Made by a program: the position numbers and the translations under genes. This document shows, piece by piece, positions 28,682 to 44,964 of a stretch of DNA of 64,000 nt. Numbering within the stretch: the first letter of the stretch is position 1; each line of letters starts with the position of its first letter. The stretch comes from Acidobacteriota bacterium (GTDB lineage Bacteria > Acidobacteriota > Vicinamibacteria > Vicinamibacterales > UBA2999). The DNA is taken from the NCBI GenBank assembly GCA_021730945.1, contig JAKFYH010000021.1, forward strand, positions 1 through 64,000. The letters are read 5' to 3'. The notes under the pieces were generated by a model. That model was not told the origin of the DNA. It saw only the letters and a program-made list of their open reading frames with translations, and searched no databases.

Positions 28682-28711
28682 GATCTGCGTCATCTGCGTC
28701 ATCTGCGGCCC
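28682..28711 (-). repeat. minisatellite copy A (9-bp units)
   Basis: Read on the minus strand this is GGGCCGCAG followed by ATGACGCAG units. It is the same composite repeat found inside the oxidase gene (32451-32550) and before the ArsA-like gene (39310-39463). It lies between two divergent promoters. A further partial CATCTGCG piece follows at 28721. Confidence 0.8.
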
Positions 28712-31903: not shown

Positions 31904-34152
31904 AGGTAGAAGCTCCCGACGAAGGCCAGCCAGGCAAGGTCGAGGAAGATCCAGTAGCGGCGGGTCGCGCTGATGCGCGCATTCCACCCCGGGCGGTCGC
32001 CGTCGGTCGAGCTCACCTGCCCGTCGTAGCGTGGACGAAGGCCCAAGCCCGGCCCGGCCAGCCAGCCGGTGTGAATGGCGCCGGCCAGAACGTGGGCCAC
32101 CAGCACACCGCCCAGGGTGAACCAACACGCCAGTTGGAGACTGGTCGAGGGCATCAGTCCCTGCCGGATGAATACGGCTCCGTTCAGCAGCGCCACGGCC
32201 ACGAAGGCGAGGCCCAGGGCATGGGCGCCGATCAGCCGGATGCGCTCGCCCGAGAACGCGGCGCTGGCGCCGAGCAGCAGCGCGGTCTCGAGCCAGGGGA
32301 ATTGCGCCAGCGGTCCCGGCCACGTGGTCGTCGAGCCGGCGCGCAGCATGACATACGCAGAAAACAGCGACCCGAAGAACATCGTCAGGGAGGCCAGGAG
32401 GAGCCAGTTACCCAGCGCCGATGCCGAGGTGCCGGTGTCGGGGCGGACCAGGGCCACAGATGAGGCAGATGACGCAGACTCGTCCAGGGCCACAGATGAG
32501 GCAGATGACGCAGACTCGTCCAGGGCCGCAGATGACGCAGATGACGCAGAGCCTGATTGCCGATTGGTGGATTCGGGATTTATTGATTGCCACTCGCGCG
32601 AGTTGGACTGCCAGGGGTTGACCGCATCACGCTCCGCTCGCCGGGCACTGGCCCAGAGGTTCCACACGAACGGCAACTGGAAGAGACCGAGCAGGACCGC
32701 GGCGTAGGTCATGTGGGCCTGCCATGGCAGCGTGGGCTGGGCCAGGGCGTAGCTGGCGCCGGCGTCGTAGAGCCGGCGGTTCACGCCCATCAGGCCGATC
32801 AGGAACATCGGCATGAAGATCAGGTTCATGCAGATGAACGATCCCCAGAAGTGAACCTTGCCGAGCGTCTCGTTGAGTACGCGGCCGGTGATGCGCGGGA
32901 ACCAGTGGTAGATGCCGGCAAACAGCGCGAATATCGTGCCCGGGGCCACCAGGTAGTGAAAATGCGCGACCACGTAGTAGGTGTCGTGCAGCGCGACGTC
33001 GCTGGCGGCCAGTCCCAGTGGCAGGCCGGTCAGCCCGCCGATGCCGAACATGGGCAGGAACGCCAGTGCAAACAACATGGGCGTGGTGAAGCGGATCGAT
33101 CCGCCCCACAGCGACATGACCAGCGACGAGATCAGGATCACCGACGGGATCGAAATGATCATGGTCGTGACCTGGAAGAATGTGCCGAGCGACGTGCTCA
33201 TCCCGCTCAGGAACATGTGGTGGGCCCACACCACCATTGACATGCCGCCCATGAACAGCACGGCGCCCACCATCAGGCCGTAGCCCCAGAGTGGCCGGCG
33301 CGCGTTCACCGTGATCACCTCGGCCACGATGCCCATGGCCGGCAGGATGAGGACGTAGACCTCGGGATGGGCGAGAAACCAGAACAGGTGCTGCCACAGG
33401 AGCGGATTGCCGCCGGCGGCGAGGCCCTGCAGCGGCACGCCGCCGATCACCAGCCCGCTCGGCAGGAAGAAGCTGGTGCCGCCGAGTCGATCCATCAACT
33501 GAAAGATGGCCGCCGCCTGCAGCGCCGGAAATGCCAGCAGCAATAACAGCGCCGTGACCAACTGCGACCAGACAAAGAACGGGAGGGTCGTCCAGGTCAC
33601 GCCCGGCGCGCGGCTCTGGACGATGGTCACCAGCATGGTGATGGCGCCGAGCGCCGCCGACAGTCCGAGCAGGATGATGCCGACCAGCCAGAGGTTCTGG
33701 CCCGGCGTGGCAATCACGGCCAGCGGCGGGTAAGAGGTCCAGCCGGAGTTGGGCGCGCCGCCCTCGACGTAGAAGCTGGCGAGCATGACCAGGCCGGCGG
33801 CGAGGTAGATCCAAAAACTGAGTGCGCTCAGTCGGGGAAACGCCATCTGCCCGGCGCCGATTTGCAGTGGGACGAAATAGGTGCCGAATGCCGACGCGGC
33901 CAACGGGACCACCGCCAGGAACACCATGACCGAGCCGTGCATGGCGACCAGCTGGTTGTAGAACTCCGGCAGCATGATGCCGCCTGGTGCGTTGGTCTCG
34001 CCCAGCATCGGCACCAGCCACGCCGGCAGCGGCTGGCCGGGCCAGGCCAGTTGCCAGCGCATCAGGAGCATCAGCTTGAATCCGACCAGCAGGAAGACCA
34101 GGGCGGTCAGGCCGTACAGCAGCCCCACCCTCTTGTGATCGGTCCAGCGCAC
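31900..34152 (-). CDS. fused cytochrome c oxidase subunits I and III
   Basis: This is a 750-aa haem-copper oxidase polypeptide. The subunit I part (about 1-515, 12 helices) has haem a His in AMHGSVMVF, the CuB-His/Tyr block FWFLAHPEVYVLILP, a His pair in WAHHMFLSGM, and haem a3 and a His in HDTYYVVAHFHYL. A low-complexity linker (about 520-570, with SASSASSVALDE repeats encoded by the minisatellite) leads into subunit III (about 575-750, ending WLAFVGSFYL). The GTG at 34152 is chosen because TAGAAT lies 7 nt before it and the protein then begins VRWTDHKRVG, typical of subunit I. It reduces O2 and pumps protons with coxB. Confidence 0.93.
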   Translation of the reverse strand: MRWTDHKRVGLLYGLTALVFLLVGFKLMLLMRWQLAWPGQPLPAWLVPMLGETNAPGGIMLPEFYNQLVAMHGSVMVFLAVVPLAASAFGTYFVPLQIGAGQMAFPRLSALSFWIYLAAGLVMLASFYVEGGAPNSGWTSYPPLAVIATPGQNLWLVGIILLGLSAALGAITMLVTIVQSRAPGVTWTTLPFFVWSQLVTALLLLLAFPALQAAAIFQLMDRLGGTSFFLPSGLVIGGVPLQGLAAGGNPLLWQHLFWFLAHPEVYVLILPAMGIVAEVITVNARRPLWGYGLMVGAVLFMGGMSMVVWAHHMFLSGMSTSLGTFFQVTTMIISIPSVILISSLVMSLWGGSIRFTTPMLFALAFLPMFGIGGLTGLPLGLAASDVALHDTYYVVAHFHYLVAPGTIFALFAGIYHWFPRITGRVLNETLGKVHFWGSFICMNLIFMPMFLIGLMGVNRRLYDAGASYALAQPTLPWQAHMTYAAVLLGLFQLPFVWNLWASARRAERDAVNPWQSNSREWQSINPESTNRQSGSASSASSAALDESASSASSVALDESASSASSVALVRPDTGTSASALGNWLLLASLTMFFGSLFSAYVMLRAGSTTTWPGPLAQFPWLETALLLGASAAFSGERIRLIGAHALGLAFVAVALLNGAVFIRQGLMPSTSLQLACWFTLGGVLVAHVLAGAIHTGWLAGPGLGLRPRYDGQVSSTDGDRPGWNARISATRRYWIFLDLAWLAFVGSFYL
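32451..32550 (-). repeat. in-frame minisatellite copy B inside the oxidase gene
   Basis: Two exact 36-bp units (32451-32486, 32487-32522) and a 28-bp third (32523-32550) have the form GGGCCRCAG + ATGASGCAG + ATGACGCAG + ACTCGTCCA. The period of 12 codons keeps the frame and encodes SASSASSVALDE-type repeats in the linker between subunits I and III. Confidence 0.9.
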
Positions 34153-34244: not shown

Positions 34245-36047
34245 ATGAAGCGCACGACTCTTCTCGCCCTTGCCACGGCCTGCCTGCTCGCCACCGCCAC
34301 GTCCGGACAGCTGAGCGCCCAGGCCCTTGAACCCATTCGCTACACCTTGCGCTTTCCCGCGCCGCACACCCACTACGTCGAGGTCGAGGCCACCATCCCG
34401 GCCGCCGGCCGGCCAGAGGTCGAGGTCTACATGGCGACCTGGACGCCCGGGTCGTACCTGATTCGAGAGTACGAGCGTAACGTCGAAGCCATGGCTGCCT
34501 CGAACGGCGCCAATGCTCTGGCCGTCGAGAAGACCCGGAAGAACCGGTGGAAGGTGACGACGCGGGGGGCGCGCGCGGTGACGCTGCGCTACAAGGTCTA
34601 CAGCCGGGAGATGACGGTCCGCAACAACTGGGTCGAGGCCGGCTTTGCCATGCTGAACGGCGCGCCGACGTTTGTCACGCTGGTCGAATCAGCGGCGCGG
34701 CCGCACGAAGTGCGCGTGGAGCTGGCCGCGACCTGGCGCGGCGTGCAGACGCCGCTCATGCCGGTGGCGACCATGCCGGACACGTTTCGCGCCGACGACT
34801 TCGACACGCTGATCGACAGCCCGATCATCATCGGAAACCCGGTGGTCAGGGAGTTCACGGTCGACGGCAAGAAGCACGCGCTGGTGCTCGAGGGCGATCC
34901 GTCGCTGTTTGACGCGGATCGCGCCGCCGCCGACGTCAAGAAGATCGTCGAGGCCGGCCGCAACGTGATGGGGCCGCTGCCGTATCCGCACTACTACTTC
35001 CTCAACATGGTCACCGAGTCGGGCGGCGGCCTCGAGCACAAGAACAGCTTCCTCGGCATGTCGGGCCGCTTCACCACCCGCACCCATCGCTCCTACATGA
35101 GCTGGCTGGGACTGATTGCCCACGAGTATTTCCACAATTGGAACGTCAAGCGGCTGCGTCCGGTGGAGCTGGGGCCCTTCGACTACGAGAACGAAAACTA
35201 CGTCAAGACGTTGTGGGTGGCCGAGGGTTTCACCGACTACTACGCTGAAGTGCTGCCGCGCCGCGCCGGCCTGGCCACCCAGCAGGAGTTTCTCGACGGC
35301 CTGTCGGATTCGATTGAGGCGGTGCAGACCACGCCGGGCCGGCTGGTGACGCCGGTCGATATGGCGTCGTTCGACACCTGGATCAAGCAGTACCGGCCCG
35401 ACGAGAACACCGCCAACACCAGCGTGAACTACTACCCGAAGGGGGCGGTGATCGCCTTCCTGCTCGACGCCAGGATCCGCAAGTCATCGGGCGCCGCGCG
35501 CACGCTCGATACCGGCATGCAGTGGGCCATGCAGCGCTACTCCGGCGCGAAGGGCTACACGCCGGCGCAGTTCTACGAGGTGATGAGTGAGGCCGCCGGC
35601 ACCGACCTCAAGGGCTGGTTCGCTCAGACCGCCGAATCGACCGACGAGCTGGACTACACCGAGGCGCTCGACTACTTCGGCCTGCGCTTCCGTCCCACCG
35701 ATCCGCGCAGCGCCCGCGCCTTTCTCGGCGGCGGCACCCGCAACGACAACGGCCGACTCGTGATCACGTCGGTGCGGCGCGGCACTCCGGCGATCGAGGC
35801 CGGCCTGAACGTGGACGACGAGATTCTCGCCATCGACGACGTGCGCGTGCGTGCCGATGGCTTGACGGCGCGACTCGATCAATACAAGCCGGGCGACAAG
35901 GTCGCGCTCCTGGTGGCGCGCCGTGACAAGCTCACCCGGATCGACGTGACGCTCGGATCCGAGCCCGGCCGTGCCTGGCGCCTGGAAGTGGCACCCAACG
36001 CCAGCGCGGAACAGAAGGCACGCCTTACTGCCTGGCTCGGTCAGTAG
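34245..36047 (+). CDS. second secreted M61 peptidase with PDZ domain
   Basis: This 600-aa paralogue of the enzyme at 28744 has a signal peptide (to about residue 27), the zinc motif HEYFH (about 293-297) in GLIAHEYFHNWNVKRLRP, the Glu of LWVAEGFTDYYAEV, and a C-terminal PDZ domain (about 510-590; VRRGTPAIEAGLNVDDEI). The active-site surroundings (NWNVKRLRP) are closer to classical M61 enzymes than in the first copy (AWNMERLRS), suggesting different peptide preferences. It is divergent from the oxidase operon and is followed by a DUF5916 protein on the same strand. Confidence 0.92.
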   Translation: MKRTTLLALATACLLATATSGQLSAQALEPIRYTLRFPAPHTHYVEVEATIPAAGRPEVEVYMATWTPGSYLIREYERNVEAMAASNGANALAVEKTRKNRWKVTTRGARAVTLRYKVYSREMTVRNNWVEAGFAMLNGAPTFVTLVESAARPHEVRVELAATWRGVQTPLMPVATMPDTFRADDFDTLIDSPIIIGNPVVREFTVDGKKHALVLEGDPSLFDADRAAADVKKIVEAGRNVMGPLPYPHYYFLNMVTESGGGLEHKNSFLGMSGRFTTRTHRSYMSWLGLIAHEYFHNWNVKRLRPVELGPFDYENENYVKTLWVAEGFTDYYAEVLPRRAGLATQQEFLDGLSDSIEAVQTTPGRLVTPVDMASFDTWIKQYRPDENTANTSVNYYPKGAVIAFLLDARIRKSSGAARTLDTGMQWAMQRYSGAKGYTPAQFYEVMSEAAGTDLKGWFAQTAESTDELDYTEALDYFGLRFRPTDPRSARAFLGGGTRNDNGRLVITSVRRGTPAIEAGLNVDDEILAIDDVRVRADGLTARLDQYKPGDKVALLVARRDKLTRIDVTLGSEPGRAWRLEVAPNASAEQKARLTAWLGQ

Positions 36048-36170
36048 TCACCACTGCGGCAGTAACCCGCTGAATCGGGCGCGTTTCAGGGCCGCTGGCC
36101 CCGGCTCTGGCGCGCCCGTCTGCCCGCCTCCCAACCTTTCCCGGGCAATCTCCGTCTATTGAACGTGGTT

Positions 36171-38735
36171 ATGAAATTCATGCGTCGCGGCGTGATTCCC
36201 GCGCTCATCCTGCTTGTCCCCGCCTTGGCCACTGCCTCGGATGAACGGCGTGCGGTGACCATGGCTATTGAGGCGGTCGCCGTGCCGGCCAACGGACCCA
36301 TCCTGGTCGACGGCAAGCTGAACGAGGAAATCTGGCAGCAGGCGCCGGCGATCAACGAGTTCGTGCAGCGCGAACCGGCGGAAGGCCAGGCGGCCACCAT
36401 GCGGACCGAGGCGCGCGTGGCCTACGACGCCAACGCTATTTATGTGGCGGTGCGGGCCTTCGATCGCGATGCCGCCCAGATCGTCGGCATCCTGACCCGT
36501 CGCGATCAGCGGTCGCCCTCCGACTGGATTCGCATTGTCATCGACTCGTACTTCGACAAGCGGTCGGCCTACGAGTTTGGAGTCAACCCGGTCGGCGTCA
36601 AGAGCGATCGTTACTACTTCAACGATGGCCAGAGCGACGACAGTTGGGACGCCGTCTGGGACGTCGAAGTGGTGAAGGACGCCGACGGCTGGACGGCCGA
36701 GTTCCGCATCCCGTTCTCGCAGCTGCGCTTCAACACCCTGGCGGGTGGACCGGTCGGCTTTGCCGTGATTCGCGAAGTGGGCCGCCTGGCCGAGACGTCG
36801 TCCTGGCCGCTGCTGTCGCGCAACGCCAATGGATACGTATCGCAGTTTGGCGAGATGCGCGGGCTGAAGATGAATGGGACGCCGAAGAAGTTCGAGCTGC
36901 TCCCGTACACCCTCGGCAAGCTGGCCACCCAGCCGGTCAGTGACGGCGATCTGCTCAATCCGTCGAAGGACCCTGGCGCGACCTTTGGCCTCGACATGAA
37001 GTACGCGGTGACGCCGGGTCTGACCCTGACCGCGACCGCCAATCCCGACTTCGGCCAGGTCGAAGCCGACCCCGCCGTGGTGAATCTCGATGCCTTCGAG
37101 ACGTTCTTCCCCGAGCGGCGGCCGTTCTTTGTTGAGGGCTCCGGCACCTTCCGCTTCAACATGGACTGCAACGACGGCAACTGCACCGGGTTGTTCTACT
37201 CACGCCGGATTGGCCGCGCGCCGCAGGGATACGCCAGCACCGGCGACGGCGAGTACTCGAAGGCGCCGGACTCGGCGACCATTATCGGTGCGGCGAAGTT
37301 GACCGGCCGCCTCGGCGGGTTCTCGCTCGGCGCCCTGACCGCGGTGACCGCGCGTGAGGACGCGGAGATCGCCGGCGCCGGCATGCTGGGGCGCCGCGAC
37401 CAGACGGTGGAGCCGCTCACCGGCTACACGGTGCTGCGCGCCCGCAAGGAGTTCAGGAACCAGTCGTCGATCGGCCTGATGACGACCTCGACCAACCGCC
37501 AGCTCGAGGACGCGGTGTCGTTTCTGTCAAACAACGCGCTGGCCGGCGGCGTTGACTACGACATCCGCTTCTCGCCCCGCTACAGCGTGACCGGCTACTG
37601 GGCCGGCAGCCGCATCGAAGGCAGCACCGAGGCGATCACGCGGTTGCAGGAGAACACCGTCCACGGCTTCCAGCGGCCTGATGCCGACTACGTCGGCCTC
37701 GATCCCACGGCCACCACGCTTCGCGGACATGCCGGTGCGCTGTCGTTCGGCAAGATCTCGGGCGAGCGGACGCGCTTCAGCACCAACCTGGGCTACAAGA
37801 GCCCGGGGTTCGACAGCAACGACCTGGGCTTCATGCGAAGGGCCGACGAGAAGACGCTGAACAACTGGTTCCAGTGGCGCAATTTCACGCCCGGCAAGTA
37901 CGTGCGCACCCGCAACTTCAATCTCAACCAGTGGGCGGCGTGGAATTTCGGCGGCGACCGGCTCTACTCTGGCGGCAACGTCAACTCGCACTGGACATTC
38001 ACCAACTACTTCAGCATCGGTGGTGGCTTCAACGTGGACGCCGCGCCCTTTCGCGATCGCAGCACGCGCGGCGGACCCGGCGTGCTCGGCAATCCGGGCA
38101 AGAGCGGGTGGTACTACTTCAATACCGACAACCGCAAGAACCTGTCGTTCTACTACAACGGCGACCATGGCGGCGACCGGTTCAACTCGATGCGCCACGG
38201 GTTCAGCCCCGGCTTCAACTGGCGCGCGTCCTCATCGATGTCGCTCAACATGGGCATCCGTTACAGCCTCAACAAGGACGATTCACAGTGGGTCGAGAAT
38301 GTCGACCTCGCCAGTGGCGGGCAGCGCTACGTGTTTGGCCGCATCGATCAGAAGACGCTGTCATTCAACACGCGCTTCAACTACACGATGACGCCCAATT
38401 TGTCGCTGCAGGTCTACGCCGAGCCGTTCGTGTCGGCCGGGCACTACACCAACTTCAAGGAGCTGGTGGACGGCCGCGCCGCCAACTACGCCGACCGCTA
38501 TCGGCCGCTGGCCTACACCGGCAATCCCGACTTCAACATCCGCTCGTTCCGCACCACCAACGTGCTGCGCTGGGAGTACAAGCCCGGCTCGGCGCTGTTC
38601 CTGGTGTGGCAGCAGGGCAAGTCCGATTACCAGAACTTCGGCGACTTTCGCTTCGGCCGCGACTTCGACGGCGTGTTTTCGGCGCCGTCTCACAACGTGT
38701 TTCTCGTGAAGTTTTCTTACTGGCTCAACATGTAA
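36171..38735 (+). CDS. DUF5916 outer-membrane protein with CBM9-like domain
   Basis: This protein of about 854 aa has a signal peptide and an N-terminal CBM9-like beta-sandwich (about 35-240; ILVDGKLNEEIWQQAPAINEFVQREP, AVWDVEVVKDADGWTAEFRIPFSQLRF). A long C-terminal DUF5916 region follows, rich in alternating aromatic strands and ending in a terminal aromatic strand (FLVKFSYWLNM), as outer-membrane barrels do. GQVEADPAVVNLDAFETFFPERRPFFVEG is a family hallmark. It is thought to bind glycans or peptides at the cell surface, but its role is not established. The frame opens at a TTG (36159); the ATG at 36171 gives a compact signal peptide. A paralogue lies at 47227. Confidence 0.88.
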   Translation: MKFMRRGVIPALILLVPALATASDERRAVTMAIEAVAVPANGPILVDGKLNEEIWQQAPAINEFVQREPAEGQAATMRTEARVAYDANAIYVAVRAFDRDAAQIVGILTRRDQRSPSDWIRIVIDSYFDKRSAYEFGVNPVGVKSDRYYFNDGQSDDSWDAVWDVEVVKDADGWTAEFRIPFSQLRFNTLAGGPVGFAVIREVGRLAETSSWPLLSRNANGYVSQFGEMRGLKMNGTPKKFELLPYTLGKLATQPVSDGDLLNPSKDPGATFGLDMKYAVTPGLTLTATANPDFGQVEADPAVVNLDAFETFFPERRPFFVEGSGTFRFNMDCNDGNCTGLFYSRRIGRAPQGYASTGDGEYSKAPDSATIIGAAKLTGRLGGFSLGALTAVTAREDAEIAGAGMLGRRDQTVEPLTGYTVLRARKEFRNQSSIGLMTTSTNRQLEDAVSFLSNNALAGGVDYDIRFSPRYSVTGYWAGSRIEGSTEAITRLQENTVHGFQRPDADYVGLDPTATTLRGHAGALSFGKISGERTRFSTNLGYKSPGFDSNDLGFMRRADEKTLNNWFQWRNFTPGKYVRTRNFNLNQWAAWNFGGDRLYSGGNVNSHWTFTNYFSIGGGFNVDAAPFRDRSTRGGPGVLGNPGKSGWYYFNTDNRKNLSFYYNGDHGGDRFNSMRHGFSPGFNWRASSSMSLNMGIRYSLNKDDSQWVENVDLASGGQRYVFGRIDQKTLSFNTRFNYTMTPNLSLQVYAEPFVSAGHYTNFKELVDGRAANYADRYRPLAYTGNPDFNIRSFRTTNVLRWEYKPGSALFLVWQQGKSDYQNFGDFRFGRDFDGVFSAPSHNVFLVKFSYWLNM

Positions 38736-38747
38736 AGAGGCTACTTG

Positions 38748-39020
38748 CCGGGAGGGCACCCCTCGTCGGGAGGGCACTTCTGGTCGGGAGGGTGCCCGCT
38801 GGTCGGGACGGTACGGCTAGCGGGATTTCCGAATCGCCCACATCCCGGGGGTCGAAGCTGAAGGGCTCCGGCCGGCCAACCACCAGTCGCGGAAAGTCGG
38901 CGTGCGCCGGGTTGGATTTCCTCTCGAAGGAGGCAATGGCCGCGCAGGTCAGACCTCGACGGGACATGCCCTCCCGACAGGCAGGCACCAAGTTCCCTCC
39001 CGACAAGAGGTGCCCTCCCG
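38748..39020. repeat. inverted array of CGGGAGGGC motifs around a non-coding core
   Basis: Four GTCGGGAGGGCA-like units (about 38748, 38765, 38783, 38802) face three inverted TGCCCTCCCGAC-like units (about 38967, 38994, 39011) across a core of about 140 bp. The stretch 38736-39035 has no credible gene. The arrangement, with repeated short arms pointing inwards, resembles a miniature inverted-repeat element or a strong multi-stem RNA/DNA structure. The right arm ends just before the promoter of the next gene. Confidence 0.6.
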
Positions 39021-39022
39021 GC

Positions 39023-39028
39023 TATGAT
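39023..39028 (+). promoter_or_regulatory. -10 element (TATGAT), leaderless
   Basis: TATGAT ends 7 nt before the GTG at 39036, directly after the last GCCCTCCCG unit of the inverted array. Confidence 0.5.
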
Positions 39029-39035
39029 CGGGTAA

Positions 39036-39290
39036 GTGTCCATCCGCCAGAACCTCGCCGACTTCTTCCACGGCGCCGCCTACGGCTCCTACGAGCGGGA
39101 ACTGCGGATGCAGGCCGCGGAACTGAACGACATGTTCCTGCTGCTCTGCTATATGGAAGTCGTCGGGCTGCCGAATCCCGCAACGTTGTATCTACTGGAC
39201 GTCTATCCCTACCTGCTCGACCAGTTCCACCTGTGGCACAAGCGCATGGGTATGGAACGCTCGCCGCTTGGAAATCTCCCCTGCTGCTGA
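39036..39290 (+). CDS. small CC-ending protein next to the ArsA-like ATPase (cory-CC-star type)
   Basis: This 84-aa soluble protein begins MSIRQNLADFFHGAAYGSYE and ends GNLPCC immediately before the stop, with a central conserved-looking LCYMEVVGLPNP and YLLDQFHLWHKRMGM. From memory this fits the small family that NCBI names 'cory-CC-star', which keeps a C-terminal Cys-Cys and occurs beside ArsA-like ATPases; no function is known to me. The paired terminal Cys could bind metal, form a disulfide or be modified. The GTG start has a TATGAT box 7 nt upstream. A repeat array of about 150 bp separates it from the ATPase gene. Confidence 0.75.
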   Translation: MSIRQNLADFFHGAAYGSYERELRMQAAELNDMFLLLCYMEVVGLPNPATLYLLDVYPYLLDQFHLWHKRMGMERSPLGNLPCC

Positions 39291-39309
39291 CACCGATGCC
39301 GTCAAACCG

Positions 39310-39463
39310 GGGCCGCAGATGACACAGATGACACAGATGGCGCAGGGCGTCCAGGGCCGCAGATGACACAGATGGCGCAGGGCGTCCAGGGCCGCAGATG
39401 ACACAGATGACGCAGATGATGCAGGGCGTCCAGGGCCGCAGATGACGCAGATGACGCAGATGG
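39310..39463 (+). repeat. minisatellite copy C (four composite units)
   Basis: Units of 44, 35, 44 and about 31 bp start at 39310, 39354, 39389 and 39433. Each has the head GGGCCGCAG, then two to four ATGACRCAG-type 9-mers, then GGCGTCCA. Unit lengths differ by one 9-mer, as expected from slippage. The last unit runs into the coding start of the ArsA-like gene, supplying ATG codons at 39442 and 39451 and the CAG before the ATG at 39460. Confidence 0.9.
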
Positions 39464-40386
39464 GTCGTCTACTGGAAAAGAAGGTGCTGTTTTTCGGCGG
39501 CAAGGGCGGCGTCGGCAAGACCACCTGTGCGTCGGCGACGGCGCTGGCGGCCAGTCATGCCGGCAAGCGCGTGTTGCTCGTGTCGACCGATCCGGCGCAT
39601 TCCACCTCTGACATCTTCGAGCGCGAGATCGGTCCCGAACCGGTGGAGCTGCTGCCCAACCTGTGGGGGCTGGAGATCGACGGCGCGATCGAATCGAAGC
39701 GCTATGTCGCCAACGTCAAGCAGCAGATCCAGGGACTGTTTGGCGACCACATCATGAAGGAAGCAAACAAGCAGATCGACCTGGCCGCCAGCATGCCCGG
39801 CGCCGAGGAGATGGCGCTGTTCGATCGCATGGGCGGGTTGATCCGCGGCGAGGACACGCGCTTCGACCTGATCGTGTTTGACACCGCGCCCACCGGCCAC
39901 ACCTTGCGGCTGATCCGCATGCCCGAATTGATGGAGGCCTGGATTCGCGCGCTGTCGCGCTCGCGCCAGGCCATGCTCGGCATCGAGCAGGACGACAAGA
40001 CCGATCCAGTGATGATCTCGCTGACTGGACGTCTTGAGGGACTGCGCGAGTTCCGGGCCCGGCTGCTGAGCCCCCGGGTGAGTGCGTTCCTGCTGGTGCT
40101 GGTGGCCGAGCGGCTCCCCATTGAAGAGACCGCGCGTGCCATCGAGCAGTTGGACGAGGCCGGCGTCAGCCTGGGTGGACTGATCGTCAACCGCATCCTG
40201 CCCGAATCGAGCCCAGACCCGTTCCTTCAATCGCGCCACGCGCAGGAGGTGGTCTACCTCAACGAAATCGACCGCCGCTTCGCAAAGCACACCCGCGTGC
40301 GGGTGCCGCAGTTACCTTCCGACGTCCACGGCATCAAAACTCTCCAGACCCTCGCCGAGATCCTGGTGCCCAACGGAGATGCATGA
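39460..40386 (+). CDS. ArsA/Get3-family ATPase
   Basis: This 308-aa cytosolic P-loop ATPase has the deviant Walker A GGKGGVGKTT, switch I STDPAHSTSDIF and switch II DTAPTGHTLRLIRMPEL, the signature of the ArsA/GET3 group. Eukaryotic Get3 delivers tail-anchored membrane proteins; ArsA drives arsenite export. No arsenite pump or ArsR lies nearby and the ArsA Cys sites are not evident, so arsenic resistance is unlikely. In-frame ATGs at 39442 and 39451 fall within the minisatellite; I choose 39460, where non-repeat sequence begins. It follows the CC-ending small gene and overlaps the DinB-like gene by 4 nt (ATGA). Confidence 0.9.
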   Translation: MGRLLEKKVLFFGGKGGVGKTTCASATALAASHAGKRVLLVSTDPAHSTSDIFEREIGPEPVELLPNLWGLEIDGAIESKRYVANVKQQIQGLFGDHIMKEANKQIDLAASMPGAEEMALFDRMGGLIRGEDTRFDLIVFDTAPTGHTLRLIRMPELMEAWIRALSRSRQAMLGIEQDDKTDPVMISLTGRLEGLREFRARLLSPRVSAFLLVLVAERLPIEETARAIEQLDEAGVSLGGLIVNRILPESSPDPFLQSRHAQEVVYLNEIDRRFAKHTRVRVPQLPSDVHGIKTLQTLAEILVPNGDA

Positions 40387-40913
40387 TGATGACGATTCCG
40401 CGACCCGCCGCGAACGAGTTCGACGCCTTTTATCAGGGTTACGTCGGCAAGATTTCCGATGCCGGCCCGCTGGCCCTGCTCAGGGATCAGGTCGCTGTGT
40501 TCCGGCAACTCCGTGGTCTGGGCGAGGCGGTGGGGGATCACCGGTATGCCGAGGGTAAGTGGAGCGTCAAGGAACTGATTGGCCACCTGGCCGATACCGA
40601 GCGTGTTTTCGCCTACCGGCTGCTTCGCATTGCCCGCGCCGACAAGACGCCGCTCGCCGGTTTTGACGAGAACGCGTGGGCCGCGGTCGCGCCGCACGGC
40701 AGGCGCTTGCTGGGTGATGTCGTCGACGAGTTGATCGGCGTCCGCATGGCAACCATCACGCTGGTCGAGTCGCTCGATGACACCGCACTGGCCAACGCCG
40801 GCGTAGCCAACAACTGTCCCGTGTCCGGCCGTGCGATCTGCTGGATCATCCCCGGCCACGCCCAGCACCACTTGGCGATCCTTGCGGAGCGATATGGCGT
40901 GGGGATCTTGTGA
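40383..40913 (+). CDS. DinB-like four-helix metalloprotein
   Basis: This 176-aa protein is mostly helical. A metal-binding-type His lies in WSVKELIGHLADTERVF and a second His pair in GHAQHHLAILAERYG, the arrangement of the DinB/YfiT-like four-helix fold. Known members are thiol-dependent transferases or hydrolases (for example with bacillithiol or mycothiol), others have no known role. It overlaps the ATPase gene by 4 nt, so the small CC protein, ATPase and DinB-like protein form one unit. Start could be any of three consecutive ATGs. Confidence 0.85.
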   Translation: MMMTIPRPAANEFDAFYQGYVGKISDAGPLALLRDQVAVFRQLRGLGEAVGDHRYAEGKWSVKELIGHLADTERVFAYRLLRIARADKTPLAGFDENAWAAVAPHGRRLLGDVVDELIGVRMATITLVESLDDTALANAGVANNCPVSGRAICWIIPGHAQHHLAILAERYGVGIL

Positions 40914-40919
40914 TCTCGT

Positions 40920-41029
40920 GATTTGGCGATCTGGTGATTTCGAGCGCTGATCTGAAGTCTCCAGATCTTGAGATTTGGAAATCGTGAGAGCCAGATCATC
41001 AAGTCACCAAATCACCAGATCGCGAAATC
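40920..41029. repeat. long inverted repeat between convergent genes
   Basis: The 21-bp arms 40920-40940 and 41009-41029 (GATTTGGCGATCTGGTGATTT and its partner) match at 19 of 21 positions. Additional ATCTTGAGATTTGG-like pieces lie between. The right arm reaches the stop codon of the acylase-family gene. It may work as a two-way terminator or RNA-stabilising structure, although it lacks a T tract and is AT-richer than its surroundings. Confidence 0.6.
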
Positions 41030-43487
41030 ATCGACTGCCGGGAGCGAGCCGCGTGACGCCCTTCGTCACCGACTCCACCTTGGCGCGCGAGTAGGCCACC
41101 GGGAAGTACGACCCCTGCGCCCACAGCTCAAACAAGTCCCGGTAATGCGGGCTGTCGGGATCGCCAGACTGGCCCGGCGTGTTGATTCCCACCGAATTGT
41201 CCCAGTCGTCCGTGTCGGCGATGATCTTGAGCGACCCGCCGGCGGCCTGGTTGTCGCCGCCGCCGGTGGCGCTCACCGTCAGGTTGTCACCGCCGCGGGG
41301 CAGCGGCCCGACCTCGAGCTTCGCGCGCGTCGCGGCGTTGACGGCCTCTGACAACGGGTGGCCCAACAGCGCGTGGTGATAGCGCTCCTGTCCGTACTGC
41401 CATTTCTGCATGTCCCCACCGAATCGCTTCGTCAGCTCGGCCACCGCCTCGTCCATGCTGCGCGCCACCAGCGCATCGCGGCCGGCAATCGGGTTGGCGC
41501 CAAAGCGGCCATCGGGCGCGTGCAACCAATCGATCATCCGCTTGGTCGAGACCTGCGTGAGCCCCGCCGTGCGGAGTGCCGCCGGCAGCACGACGTCGCT
41601 CGTGTTGGCGAGGATTCGCCGTTGCCACATCGCGTAGACGCCGGCGGCGACCGAATCCTTGTCGAGGACGAAGTCCCAGGTAGTCAGCAGGTCCCGCGCT
41701 TTCGCGCTCGCCGGGTTCGACAAGGTGACCCGCCTCAGGAGCGGCGTCAGGGCGCGCGCCACCACCGACAGATCGTCGTTCTGCAAGCGCGTCATCTCCG
41801 GAACCGTGAACAGCCGGCCCGAGCCGAGCACCTCGGCAATCCGGGTCGCGCGGAAGGCGTCGGTCCAGTTGGTGACGTGCAGCAGATCCTTGTAGGGATA
41901 GTCTTCGGGCAGCAGGTAGTTGTTGGCGGTGGCAATGTAGCCACGGGCCGGGTTGCTTTCGGACGGCAGCGACTTGATCGGAAGGTAGCCACTCCACTCG
42001 TAGCGTCCATCGCCCGGCACCGGCAGGACGCCGCTCCAGTTGCGGCGGATCGGCTGGATACCTGAAGCCTGCCAGCCGATGGTGCCGCTGCGATCGACCC
42101 ACACCATGTTCTCGGAGGGCATCTGGCTGAAGCTGCACGCCTCGCGGAACTCCTCCCAGTTGCGCGCCTGGTTCATGCGGAGGCTGGCCAGGTACGGCGC
42201 GCTGCCGGGTTCCAGCCATGCCGCGCGCAGCGCGTAGGCCTTGCGGTTGGCGCGGTCTTCAAACACCACGGGCCCGTGGCGGGTGTACTTCAGCTCCACG
42301 GCTTCGGGCTTCGCACCCTTGACGGGAATGGTGTCGGCGATCACCCGCATCGGCTCCCACCGGCCCTGGTAGCGATACTCGTTGGCATTCGCCGGATTGG
42401 TGTCGTAGACGTACAAGTCTTCTGAGTCCTGCCCGAAGATCGTGAGGCCCCACGCGCCATGCTCGTTGTGCCCAATCGACACGCCGGGCAGTACCGGTTC
42501 GCCACCGCCGATCACGTTCCAGCCAGGCGCCACCAGGTGCACCCAGTAGCGCAGTGACGGGGCTGCCACCACCCGATGCGGGTCGTTGGCGAGGATCGGC
42601 CTGGTGCTCATCGTCTTCGACCCTGACACCACCCAGTTGTTGGAGCCGATGTCACGCGCGTCGGCGTCGAGGTCGGCCGGCCCGGCGGGATCGGCCGCGA
42701 ACGCAGGGTTGTCGGGCAACCGTAAAGGGTTGCCCCCACGAGCCTCCGACAAGCGGTACTCAGGCAACACGTCCTCGGGCCTGAACTGGATGCCGGCGCG
42801 GAACGCGGTGTAGATCTCCAGTACGTTGTCCGGGAAGGTCGCCGGGTCAATGGCGGCATCCAGCTCGAAGCGCGGGTTGCCGCCCTGGAAATACATCAGC
42901 GCTCGCGCCTGGTCGATGCCAATGGCCTTGATGGCGCGCATCGATCGCGCCTCTTCACCGGCATTCGAGGCCAGCGCCTGGTGCCGCGAAATCACCACCG
43001 CCGGCGTCCACCGCCCCGGCGTGATGCCGAGCATGCGAAACTCCATGGGGAGCAGCGCGGCGTTCTCCTCGGTTTCAGCGATGTAGGCGTTGATGCCCTG
43101 CACGTACGACTCGACGATGGCCTTTCCGCGCGGGTGATAGCGGTTCAGTTCCTCGTCCAGGTCACCGCGAAACATGTGCAGGCGGGCGCCCTGGTCGCGC
43201 CTGGCCTCGCGGGGTCCCAGCATCTCGGCCACCGTGCCGGTGGCCTGCCGGCGCCACATCTCGAACTGGAACAGGCGATCCTTTGCCGCCGCGTAGCCTT
43301 GCGCGAAGAACAGGTCGGCCTCGTTCTGCGCATAGATGTGGTTGATGCCCCAATGGTCGCGCAGGATCTCCACCGGCTGGCTGAGTCCGGCCACCTGGAG
43401 GCTGGCGGCCGGCGCCTGGGCGGAAGCGCCGCTCCCGGCCGCGGACAGGGCAAGCAGGAGCACGAGGGCGAGGCGGTATGGCGTCAT
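41028..43487 (-). CDS. secreted penicillin acylase-family N-terminal nucleophile hydrolase
   Basis: This 819-aa precursor has a signal peptide (MTPYRLALVLLLALSAAGSGASAQ). The alpha part has HIYAQNEADLFFAQGYAAAKDRLFQFEMWRRQATG, the family hallmark, in which the residues run continuously. A processing site before Ser in DIGSNNWVVSGSKT would expose the catalytic serine of the beta chain. Such enzymes cleave amides, for example beta-lactam side chains, acyl-homoserine lactones or N-acyl peptides. The ATG at 43487 has TATATT 7 nt upstream; the open frame continues to 43601 through the neighbouring promoter and is rejected. Confidence 0.92.
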   Translation of the reverse strand: MTPYRLALVLLLALSAAGSGASAQAPAASLQVAGLSQPVEILRDHWGINHIYAQNEADLFFAQGYAAAKDRLFQFEMWRRQATGTVAEMLGPREARRDQGARLHMFRGDLDEELNRYHPRGKAIVESYVQGINAYIAETEENAALLPMEFRMLGITPGRWTPAVVISRHQALASNAGEEARSMRAIKAIGIDQARALMYFQGGNPRFELDAAIDPATFPDNVLEIYTAFRAGIQFRPEDVLPEYRLSEARGGNPLRLPDNPAFAADPAGPADLDADARDIGSNNWVVSGSKTMSTRPILANDPHRVVAAPSLRYWVHLVAPGWNVIGGGEPVLPGVSIGHNEHGAWGLTIFGQDSEDLYVYDTNPANANEYRYQGRWEPMRVIADTIPVKGAKPEAVELKYTRHGPVVFEDRANRKAYALRAAWLEPGSAPYLASLRMNQARNWEEFREACSFSQMPSENMVWVDRSGTIGWQASGIQPIRRNWSGVLPVPGDGRYEWSGYLPIKSLPSESNPARGYIATANNYLLPEDYPYKDLLHVTNWTDAFRATRIAEVLGSGRLFTVPEMTRLQNDDLSVVARALTPLLRRVTLSNPASAKARDLLTTWDFVLDKDSVAAGVYAMWQRRILANTSDVVLPAALRTAGLTQVSTKRMIDWLHAPDGRFGANPIAGRDALVARSMDEAVAELTKRFGGDMQKWQYGQERYHHALLGHPLSEAVNAATRAKLEVGPLPRGGDNLTVSATGGGDNQAAGGSLKIIADTDDWDNSVGINTPGQSGDPDSPHYRDLFELWAQGSYFPVAYSRAKVESVTKGVTRLAPGSR

Positions 43488-43494
43488 GACCCGC

Positions 43495-43502
43495 AATATA
43501 CT
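43495..43502. promoter_or_regulatory. overlapping divergent -10 elements (AATATACT)
   Basis: The plus strand reads TATACT (43497-43502), 7 nt before the ArgH-like ATG. The minus strand reads TATATT (43495-43500), 7 nt before the acylase ATG. The two start codons are only 22 nt apart, so both genes use one shared site. Confidence 0.6.
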
Positions 43503-43509
43503 GCTAGTG

Positions 43510-44964
43510 ATGAAGTTCGCGCCCGAGTACGTCACCAACGTCCTCAACGAAAATTTCGAAGACGCCAAGGAGCTCCTCCTCACGCCCTTGATGTCGATCA
43601 ACTACGCCCATCTGGTGATGCTCACCGACCAGGGCATCATCACCAAGGCCGATGCCCACGCACTGCGGGTGGCCCTCGACGGGATCTCGCTCGACAGCGT
43701 GCGCGAAGTGCTTTACGACGGCACCTACGAAGACCTGTTCTTCTATATCGAGCGCCTGATCAAGCAGTCGTGCGACGAAGACGTCGCCGGCCGCCTGCAC
43801 ACCGCGCGCAGCCGCAACGACATCGACATGACGATGTACCGCATTCGGCAGCGCGAGTTCATCGCCGCGCTGGCGTCGGCGGCGCTCGATCTGCGCGAGG
43901 CGCTGCTGGCGCTGGCCGAGCGGCACACCCACACCGTCTACGGCGCCCATACCCACACCCAGCCGGCGCAGCCATCCACGATCGCCCACTACCTGCTGGC
44001 CGTGATCGAGCAGCTCGAACGCGACACCACCCGGCTGGCGGCGGCGTTTGAATCTACCAACCGCAATCCGCTCGGCGCCTGCGCCATTACCGGCACGGGA
44101 TTTCCGATCGACCGCAACCGCACCAGTGAGCTGCTCGGCTTCAACGGCCCCACCGGTAACACCTACGGCAGCATTGCCACGGTTGACTACCTGCTGGAAA
44201 GCGTCGCCGCCACCAGCACGATGATCGTCGGCATCGGCCGCGTGATTCAGGACTTTCTGCTCTGGTGCACGATGGAGTTCGGCTACCTGCGTTTGAGCGA
44301 CGGCTTCGTGCAGGGCAGCAGCATCATGCCGCAGAAGCGCAACCCGGTGGCGCTCGAGCACGCCCGCGCGATCGGCAGCAAGGCCGTCGGCCAGGCCCAG
44401 GCCATCATCACCACCGTCCACAACACCCCCTTCGGCGACATCGTCGATACCGAAGACGACCTGCAGCCGCTGGTGGCGTCGATGTTCGACGATGCGACCC
44501 GTATGGTGACACTGGTGGCGGCGGCCATGCGGCTGGCGGATTTCAACGTCGAGCACCTGGCCTCGCGTGCCTCGATTGGCGGCACCACCATGACCGAGCT
44601 GGCCGATACCCTGGTGCGCGACCACGACCTGCCGTTCCGCTCGGCGCACGCCATTGCCGCGTTGCTGCTGAAGGCGCAAATCGAGGATCCGAATGTGTCG
44701 CTGTCGGCAGCCCTCACGAGCGCGTCGAGCGCGATCCTGGGCCGGCCGCTGGCGTACCCGGAAGCCGAACTGCAGAAGGTGCTGAGTCCCGCTCACTTCG
44801 TGAGCGTGCGCAAGACCCACGGTGGCCCGGCGCCGGAGGAAACCGGTCGCGCGATCGGCGAGTCGCACCGGTTGCTCGACACCGACCGCGAAAGCTGGGG
44901 CTTGCGGCGCGAGCGGCTGGACCGCGCCGCCGCCAACCTTGCCGAAAGGGCCCGGCAACTGTGA
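43510..44964 (+). CDS. argH: argininosuccinate lyase-like enzyme
   Basis: This 484-aa fumarase/aspartase-superfamily lyase has the ArgH-type block GRLHTARSRNDIDM (about 95-107), a HTHTQPAQPSTIAHY segment with the acid/base His, and the catalytic loop GSSIMPQKRNP (about 269-279). Classical ArgH splits argininosuccinate to arginine and fumarate. Here it is not beside other arginine genes but is followed by a microprotein and a sodium symporter, and its N-terminus lacks the usual WGGRF opening. It may therefore use a related substrate. The frame opens far upstream inside the divergent gene; the ATG at 43510 is set by a TATACT box. Confidence 0.85.
   Translation: MKFAPEYVTNVLNENFEDAKELLLTPLMSINYAHLVMLTDQGIITKADAHALRVALDGISLDSVREVLYDGTYEDLFFYIERLIKQSCDEDVAGRLHTARSRNDIDMTMYRIRQREFIAALASAALDLREALLALAERHTHTVYGAHTHTQPAQPSTIAHYLLAVIEQLERDTTRLAAAFESTNRNPLGACAITGTGFPIDRNRTSELLGFNGPTGNTYGSIATVDYLLESVAATSTMIVGIGRVIQDFLLWCTMEFGYLRLSDGFVQGSSIMPQKRNPVALEHARAIGSKAVGQAQAIITTVHNTPFGDIVDTEDDLQPLVASMFDDATRMVTLVAAAMRLADFNVEHLASRASIGGTTMTELADTLVRDHDLPFRSAHAIAALLLKAQIEDPNVSLSAALTSASSAILGRPLAYPEAELQKVLSPAHFVSVRKTHGGPAPEETGRAIGESHRLLDTDRESWGLRRERLDRAAANLAERARQL

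Follow-up and report, generated by a model that had tools for sequence, protein, structure and literature searches.

Carriers of the CstA family import pyruvate, and perhaps peptides, under carbon shortage. The CstA of Escherichia coli is driven by the proton gradient and needs a 65-aa protein of unknown action; many bacteria place an ATPase of the Get3/ArsA type and a different protein ending in Cys-Cys (CC) behind the carrier gene. We analyzed a stretch of 64,000 nucleotides (the window; positions 1 to 64,000 of contig JAKFYH010000021.1, assembly GCA_021730945.1, from an Acidobacteriota bacterium of the order Vicinamibacterales) carrying, on the plus strand, a gene for a small protein of the cory-CC-star family (cory; 39036..39290) and a gene for a single-domain Get3/ArsA-type ATPase (39460..40386, possible upstream start 39442). 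An original prediction, made from the letters of the window, had joined these two genes with a following gene for a DinB-like protein into a three-gene system of no known function. The pair is a detached variant of the published CstA-CstX-ArsA module, not a new three-gene system; it departs from the published description in that cstA is absent from the locus, one intact cstA lies elsewhere in the genome and the ATPase is shorter. With a probability of about 0.5, we propose that cory and its ATPase form an accessory module of CstA-family carriers, acting in trans in the window lineage.

Described systems related to the cory-ATPase pair

The closest described system is that of Castillo and Saier (2010; PMC2963123). 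Their study lists 26 cstA-arsA associations, 24 of which include a protein of about 90 aa named CstX, reports that the CstA, CstX and ArsA trees largely match and that the proteins co-evolve, and proposes that ArsA energizes CstA, with CstX as a possible linker; the single-domain ArsA homologues are described as devoid of the three ArsA cysteines. The association has thus been in print since 2010, and the claim of a system with no known function is not supported. Cluster 17 of the study includes Alkalilimnicola ehrlichei, and since our locus from this species (L099) shows the order cstA-cory-ATPase, cory is very likely CstX. Like the published module, the cory system consists of a small protein of about 90 aa and a single-domain ArsA homologue of about 300-330 aa lacking the ArsA cysteines, and the published gene order is that of the named loci described below. 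Unlike it, the window has no adjacent cstA, nor have the other genomes of the stand-alone type (21 in the order sample), and the stand-alone ATPase is about 28 residues shorter in one segment. CstX is recognized by its place between cstA and an arsA homologue: the window protein has the size and the arsA-type neighbor, and no cstA beside it. A literature search returned no paper under the name cory-CC-star, nor any on an ArsA family ATPase together with carbon starvation, and no experiment on cory or its ATPase was found in the literature searched; in the portions consulted no description was found of a detached form, of an ATPase shortened in this way or of a convergent CC tail.

A second related system is that of YbdD. 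In E. coli, pyruvate uptake through CstA depends on this protein (PMC5847655), CstA works on the proton gradient and protonophores stop uptake (PMC7730263). Like cory, the YbdD/YjiX proteins are small (60-75 aa), are encoded beside CstA and end in CC, or in CU in some Campylobacterales; unlike cory, E. coli ybdD has no ATPase gene beside it. For their family, DUF466, a selenocysteine after the cysteine at the end of the protein has been described in some Campylobacterales and redox activity suggested (PMC4607533), and the YbdD/YjiX family (PF04328 Sel_put, DUF466) is listed as KCU-star (NF033934) in PMC13188914.

The cstA-cory-ATPase gene cluster

Gene neighborhoods were compared in the following collections: (i) the named loci, i.e., the best 80 of at least 302 relatives of cory from a contig scan, whose titles are mainly Halomonas and kin, Idiomarina, Halopseudomonas, Ectothiorhodospiraceae and Vicinamibacterales (most of them gammaproteobacterial); (ii) a phylum set of 297 genomes, where the cory model (NF041419, curated cut-off 80 bits) matches 30 genomes, 11 of those above the cut-off; (iii) a sample of the window's order (120 genomes, 38 with cory and 82 without); and (iv) a sample of the window's family (43 genomes). 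Seven loci are present in both collections of loci (L052/L168, L053/L165, L054/L166, L057/L170, L061/L171, L072/L172 and L101/L176).

The two genes travel together. The ATPase gene follows cory in 79 of the best 80 named loci, and in the phylum set the small protein is succeeded by an ArsA-type open reading frame (ORF) at 29 of 30 loci, the exception (L019) ending early. These counts, together with the strong purifying selection on both genes, in effect refute the explanation that cory and the ATPase are chance neighbors without a common function, for which a 154-bp repeat array lying between them in the window could speak; for the DinB gene chance is the default. Conservation of the neighborhood, named in the original prediction as a check, thus held for the ATPase and failed for DinB, which accompanies none of the best 80 named loci and 9 of 18 stand-alone loci.

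Neighbor clustering placed a membrane protein upstream of cory in 69 of the best 80 named loci; this protein is CstA (PF02554, 456 bits). By tblastn, cstA stands immediately before cory in 79 of the 80, L125 being at a contig edge. Taken from estimated gene starts, the gaps are operon-like, with a median of 15 bp separating cstA from cory (79 loci) and of 35 bp separating cory from the ATPase gene (72 loci). The missing third gene of the module is cstA, not DinB. In the phylum set, 24 genomes with the small protein have CstA adjacent to it in 14 cases and elsewhere in 10, including the window genome (G000:C40).

In the mechanism that we propose, a dimer of the ATPase would bind cory, which would dock it onto CstA as an adaptor, and ATP binding and hydrolysis would power or gate the carrier in the way that ArsA serves ArsB. 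Acting perhaps as a thiol switch at the face of CstA, the invariant CC tail may perform the step for which E. coli uses the tail of YbdD, an unrelated protein. The pair of the window lineage, separated from cstA, would most likely act in trans, its target being the one long-type CstA that the genome encodes at another place. Gene order, co-occurrence and the constant tail are observed, and from these observations we infer physical contact, the direction of energy use and the trans action. If the ATPase powers or gates CstA, this would be another case, besides ArsA-ArsB, of a secondary carrier made ATP-driven, and the common CC end would offer a direct experimental handle on CstA uptake.

Variants of the cluster were also seen. 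In other families of the phylum (L014-L017 and L020-L025), cstA stands with genes for two ArsA-type ATPases and for a pair of small proteins that do not end in CC; in most such tandem operons the first small protein ends in ..LHG(V/L/M) and the second in ..SDAMF or similar. Profile comparison joins these tandem-type small proteins to cory with an hhalign probability of 97.1%, and likewise the third and fourth small-protein groups, taken together, with 96.3%. A second CstA is encoded downstream of the ATPase in L032, L090, L163-L165 and L167-L169. In Halomonas-type loci, the opposite strand upstream of cstA carries genes for a protein with PAS and exonuclease parts and for a response regulator (L080:703-2763, L091:3650-4033).

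The small protein and its Cys-Cys end

The cory protein of the window (84 aa, GTG start, ending ..LPCC) scores 88.8 bits against NF041419, above the cut-off, which bears out the family name given in the original prediction; it is the only match in the 4.7 Mb of the genome. The C-terminal CC is invariant in 116 of 116 loci (109 distinct ones once duplicates are removed), and the peptide patterns of the named-loci scan exclude the tail. The cory of L013, at 28% identity and with a match that stopped short of the tail positions, keeps the CC end; at this locus (G060:C2) lies a second cory-ATPase pair, a distant one, and the CstA of that genome is found on a different contig. Across six relatives cory is under strong purifying selection (dN 0.066 and dS 0.959 against G293). 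Its AlphaFold2 model has helices at residues 2-43 and 48-71 and a coil tail (pLDDT 73, pTM 0.35). For CstX one transmembrane segment is expected; the best 19-residue Kyte-Doolittle mean is 1.35 for the window cory and 1.02 for a Halomonas-type cory. No solved relative of cory was found (best E 0.86), a structural look-up with the low-confidence model returned nothing, and a single-sequence query, which reaches close relatives only, found no relative encoded by viruses.

Other proteins ending in CC are E. coli YbdD, the ArsD of the window genome (..GSGCC) and one CstA (L142; G029:C27), whose C-terminus reads ..HVPGSGCC and which is alone in this among 137 CstA sequences; the expectation that a CstA without cory would carry a CC of its own was rejected on this count. 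All 137 CstA sequences share one cysteine, which in E. coli is Cys350 and lies in the motif IACGAxSGFH. A further cysteine is common to all 79 cory-operon CstA proteins; of 24 others, forming a mixed group, about half have it. For E. coli CstA itself, phmmer returned no solved relative at E 0.01. Because the ATPase offers no obvious partner cysteine, the CC tail is more likely to point towards CstA or the solvent than towards the ATPase, and a possible redox role for it is made more plausible by analogy with DUF466, whose CC is Cys-Sec in some species. A broader and rather improbable version of the proposal would make the CC tail a general working part of CstA-type carriers, supplied in trans by YbdD or cory, two unrelated small proteins, or in one case by CstA itself (L142), and acting on the invariant CstA cysteine; the Get3-like ATPase would load or reset the tail, and the unit of the window's order would be free-standing and serve a CstA encoded elsewhere.

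Replacement of YbdD by cory is a suggestion. No homology between the two was detected (hhalign probability 0.8% with one sequence, 11 residues aligned, and 0.9% with a 7-sequence profile, five residues aligned), and none of 49 cory-family members matches PF04328. Searches for Sel_put/YbdD gave no match in the 24 cory genomes traced from 24 of the 80 named loci, each of which has a CstA, and none in 31 phylum genomes, including the seven without the small protein. In L132 (G257), a YbdD-like ORF ending KPRCC follows a long CstA and was not picked up by the PF04328 genome search; because of this miss the counts of 0/24 and 0/31 fall short of proving absence.

The detached form and the distribution of CstA

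In the order sample, CstA is present in 37 of the 38 genomes with cory, compared with 52 of the 82 without it (Fisher p 3e-5, the Fisher tests on this co-occurrence ignoring kinship); the pair in this order is almost confined to genomes with CstA. The cory genome without CstA (G330) is 77% complete. We divided the CstA proteins into short, 700-bit and 800-bit classes by our own cuts on PF02554 scores, set after the scores had been seen. In the 17 cory genomes with a short CstA, this lies upstream on the same contig and strand, at a distance from the cory match of about 0.3 kb at most (1.5 kb in G341). Of the 21 window-type (stand-alone) cory genomes, 19 encode a long CstA of 673-711 bits on a contig other than that of cory, while G381 has only a weak CstA fragment and G330 none; the ATPase gene was checked and found beside cory in 17 of the 21. 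Among the 99 remaining genomes of the sample, 23 have a long CstA, counting two fragments besides those of 665-711 bits.

Within the window's family, cory is found in 0 of 10 genomes with an 800-bit CstA and in 21 of 22 with the 700-bit class, a contrast that counts G408, whose CstA is split over two contigs, among the 22 and leaves out four short-class genomes (three with adjacent cory and one without), two with CstA fragments (one with cory) and five without CstA (of which G400 has cory). By genus the figures are 0 of 9 for the 800-bit and 7 of 7 for the 700-bit class, where a single member with cory suffices to score a genus as positive and one of the seven depends on a fragment. On an rpoB tree of 21 genomes the cory label has to change three times, and the three genomes with cory that fall within a mainly 800-class clade each carry a CstA of some class other than the 800-bit one.

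Several observations weigh against the proposed dependence on CstA. The window locus itself has no cstA, the single intact copy lying elsewhere in the genome, and G060 and G144 too have the pair away from cstA. G277, of the same genus as the window, has the same CstA class and no cory, and cory is missing from 23 of the 42 order-sample genomes that have this long class. At L054 (= L166, G379), cstA and cory are present with no ATPase in the approximately 770 bases left on the contig. E. coli CstA runs on a proton gradient and has no known ATPase (PMC7730263). The absence of YbdD is weak evidence for a replacement, as divergent members are missed; in the phylum it is uninformative, because genomes without the small protein lack a match too. 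The trans link, finally, rests on a co-distribution that is largely inherited. The rpoB tree gives three independent pairs, two in the expected direction and none in the opposite one (p 0.5), and because these are too few, shared ancestry may account for the co-distribution.

The Get3/ArsA-type ATPase

The assignment of the second protein to the ArsA/Get3 type was upheld by its scores against TIGR00345 (264.8 bits) and PF02374 (260.8 bits), and its motifs are GKGGVGKT, DPAHS and DTAPTGHT. Against TIGR04291, the ArsA arsenical pump, it reaches 151.9 bits, below the cut-off of 650. The closest solved structure to its AlphaFold2 model (pLDDT 88.9) is the archaeal TRC40/Get3 3zq6 (Z 31.7, rmsd 2.5, 281 residues aligned), followed by yeast Get3 and ArsA (Z 28-29). 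The ATPase is under strong purifying selection in six relatives (dN 0.055 against G293). It contains a single Cys, at position 22. No cysteine is conserved among operon-type ATPases; of the 17 stand-alone sequences, 88% have one next to the P-loop.

The stand-alone ATPases differ from the operon type in one segment after the DTAP motif. Counted by alignment, the spacing from DTAP to ERLPI is 74-89 residues in 17 of 17 stand-alone ATPases and 99-105 residues in 90 of 90 operon-type rows. At least six of these 90 rows duplicate a locus, and the alignment count contains no sequences of the tandem type or of groups 3-4. The window ATPase and its kin are about 28 residues shorter here. Because of this shorter segment the detached form is, judged by the alignments, set apart in the structure of its ATPase as well as in gene location.

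These features bear on the main rival explanation, a Get3-like assembly role. The ATPase would act as a targeting factor or holdase that brings parts of CstA, or cory, to the membrane or assembles this many-helix carrier, with ATP spent on insertion and not on transport. We consider this doubtful, though it has the structural match to 3zq6 in its favor, as well as the length of the segment in operon-type ATPases, part of which, in the L063 protein aligned to 3zq6, falls in the helical subdomain; with modest confidence, cory is predicted to be a helical hairpin. Like Get3/TRC40, the window ATPase has the ATPase fold, P-loop and DTAP motif. Get3/TRC40, which uses membrane receptors in delivering tail-anchored proteins, carries a CxxC zinc site, and this motif is missing from all 32 aligned ATPases and from all 107 stand-alone and operon-type rows. 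Unlike Get3, moreover, the window ATPase is partnered by a conserved small protein encoded alongside, the stand-alone type is short in the very segment where we take the Get3 client lid to sit, and the CstA of other genomes, e.g., that of E. coli, has no ATPase neighbor.

The cysteine content also bears on a metal or metalloid module of the ArsD-ArsA kind, with the CC tail binding a soft metal and handing it to the ATPase. Such a metal chaperone role is unlikely. A vicinal Cys pair on a small protein beside an ArsA-type ATPase would fit it, and the window genome provides a parallel at L242:3679-6002 (G000:C1), where an ArsD (PF06953, ending ..GSGCC) is encoded directly before an ArsA. Like the cory system, this is a small CC-ending partner gene ahead of an ArsA-type ATPase gene; unlike it, the ArsA has two domains and ArsD belongs to another family. 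The ATPase of the window is not an ArsA by these features, having one domain and one Cys instead of the three metalloid cysteines, which the single-domain homologues lack as noted above (PMC2963123), and the chaperone function of ArsD is carried by its N-terminal and not by its C-terminal cysteines (PMC4562236). With a single Cys in the window ATPase and no CxxC in any of the 32 aligned ATPases, a metal site joining the CC tail and the ATPase is not supported. No ars family was found among the annotated neighbors, in agreement with the original prediction; the annotated flanking genes encode a DUF5916 protein and a penicillin amidase.

The DinB gene and the repeats

The three ORFs stand in a row on the plus strand where they had been placed from the start, with the 84-aa protein and its terminal Cys-Cys, and the ATPase and DinB genes overlap as ATGA. 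The third gene (40383..40913, plus strand) begins with three consecutive ATG codons, so that its true start is uncertain, and encodes a DinB_2 (YfiT-like) protein of 176 aa (PF12867, 60.3 bits; cut-off 24.8), i.e., DinB-like as supposed. Against NF009807, the YfiT bacillithiol transferase, it gives 33 bits and does not reach the cut-off of 160, which leaves it a member of DinB_2 only.

DinB is a lineage-specific neighbor outside the conserved module, since it occurs at 0 of the best 80 named loci and at 9 of 18 stand-alone loci, all in three related genera (g1, g4 and g169) among the loci examined, most of the 18 extending only about 560 bases past the ATPase, so that a DinB farther away would escape. 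The longer stretches of L035, L040 and L041 contain no DinB. Beside the stand-alone pairs no shared partner emerged in eight loci, which have in common only the pair and its shadow frames, DinB being common to five. The gene was found in four of six relatives and is less constrained (dN 0.168 against G293, vs. 0.055 for the ATPase and 0.066 for cory).

In the window's genera, repurposing of the detached pair is possible though improbable: with the DinB-fold, thiol-transferase-like protein it would form a new thiol/redox module unrelated to CstA. The DinB gene behind the pair in half of the stand-alone loci, the shortened ATPase in 17 of 17, the cstA off the locus and G277, with its CstA class and no pair, are all consistent with this. 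The other half of the loci examined lack DinB, however, which also evolves faster than cory and the ATPase, and the stand-alone pairs still follow a CstA class.

Between cory and the ATPase gene, Tandem Repeats Finder detected a tandem repeat on the plus strand (39310..39463; 44-bp unit, 3.7 copies). It is built on GCAGATGACACAGATG, with related copies at 28682-28706 and 32528-32543 of the window; at two or fewer mismatches the window holds 11 matches, against 0.03 expected. In the stand-alone relatives examined the gap between the two genes is short by tblastn positions, unlike that of the window. No Rfam match was found in 36000-44000. Upstream of cory, at about 38750-38830 and 38960-39030, short GGGAGGGCAC-like repeats and their reverse complements were recognized by eye.

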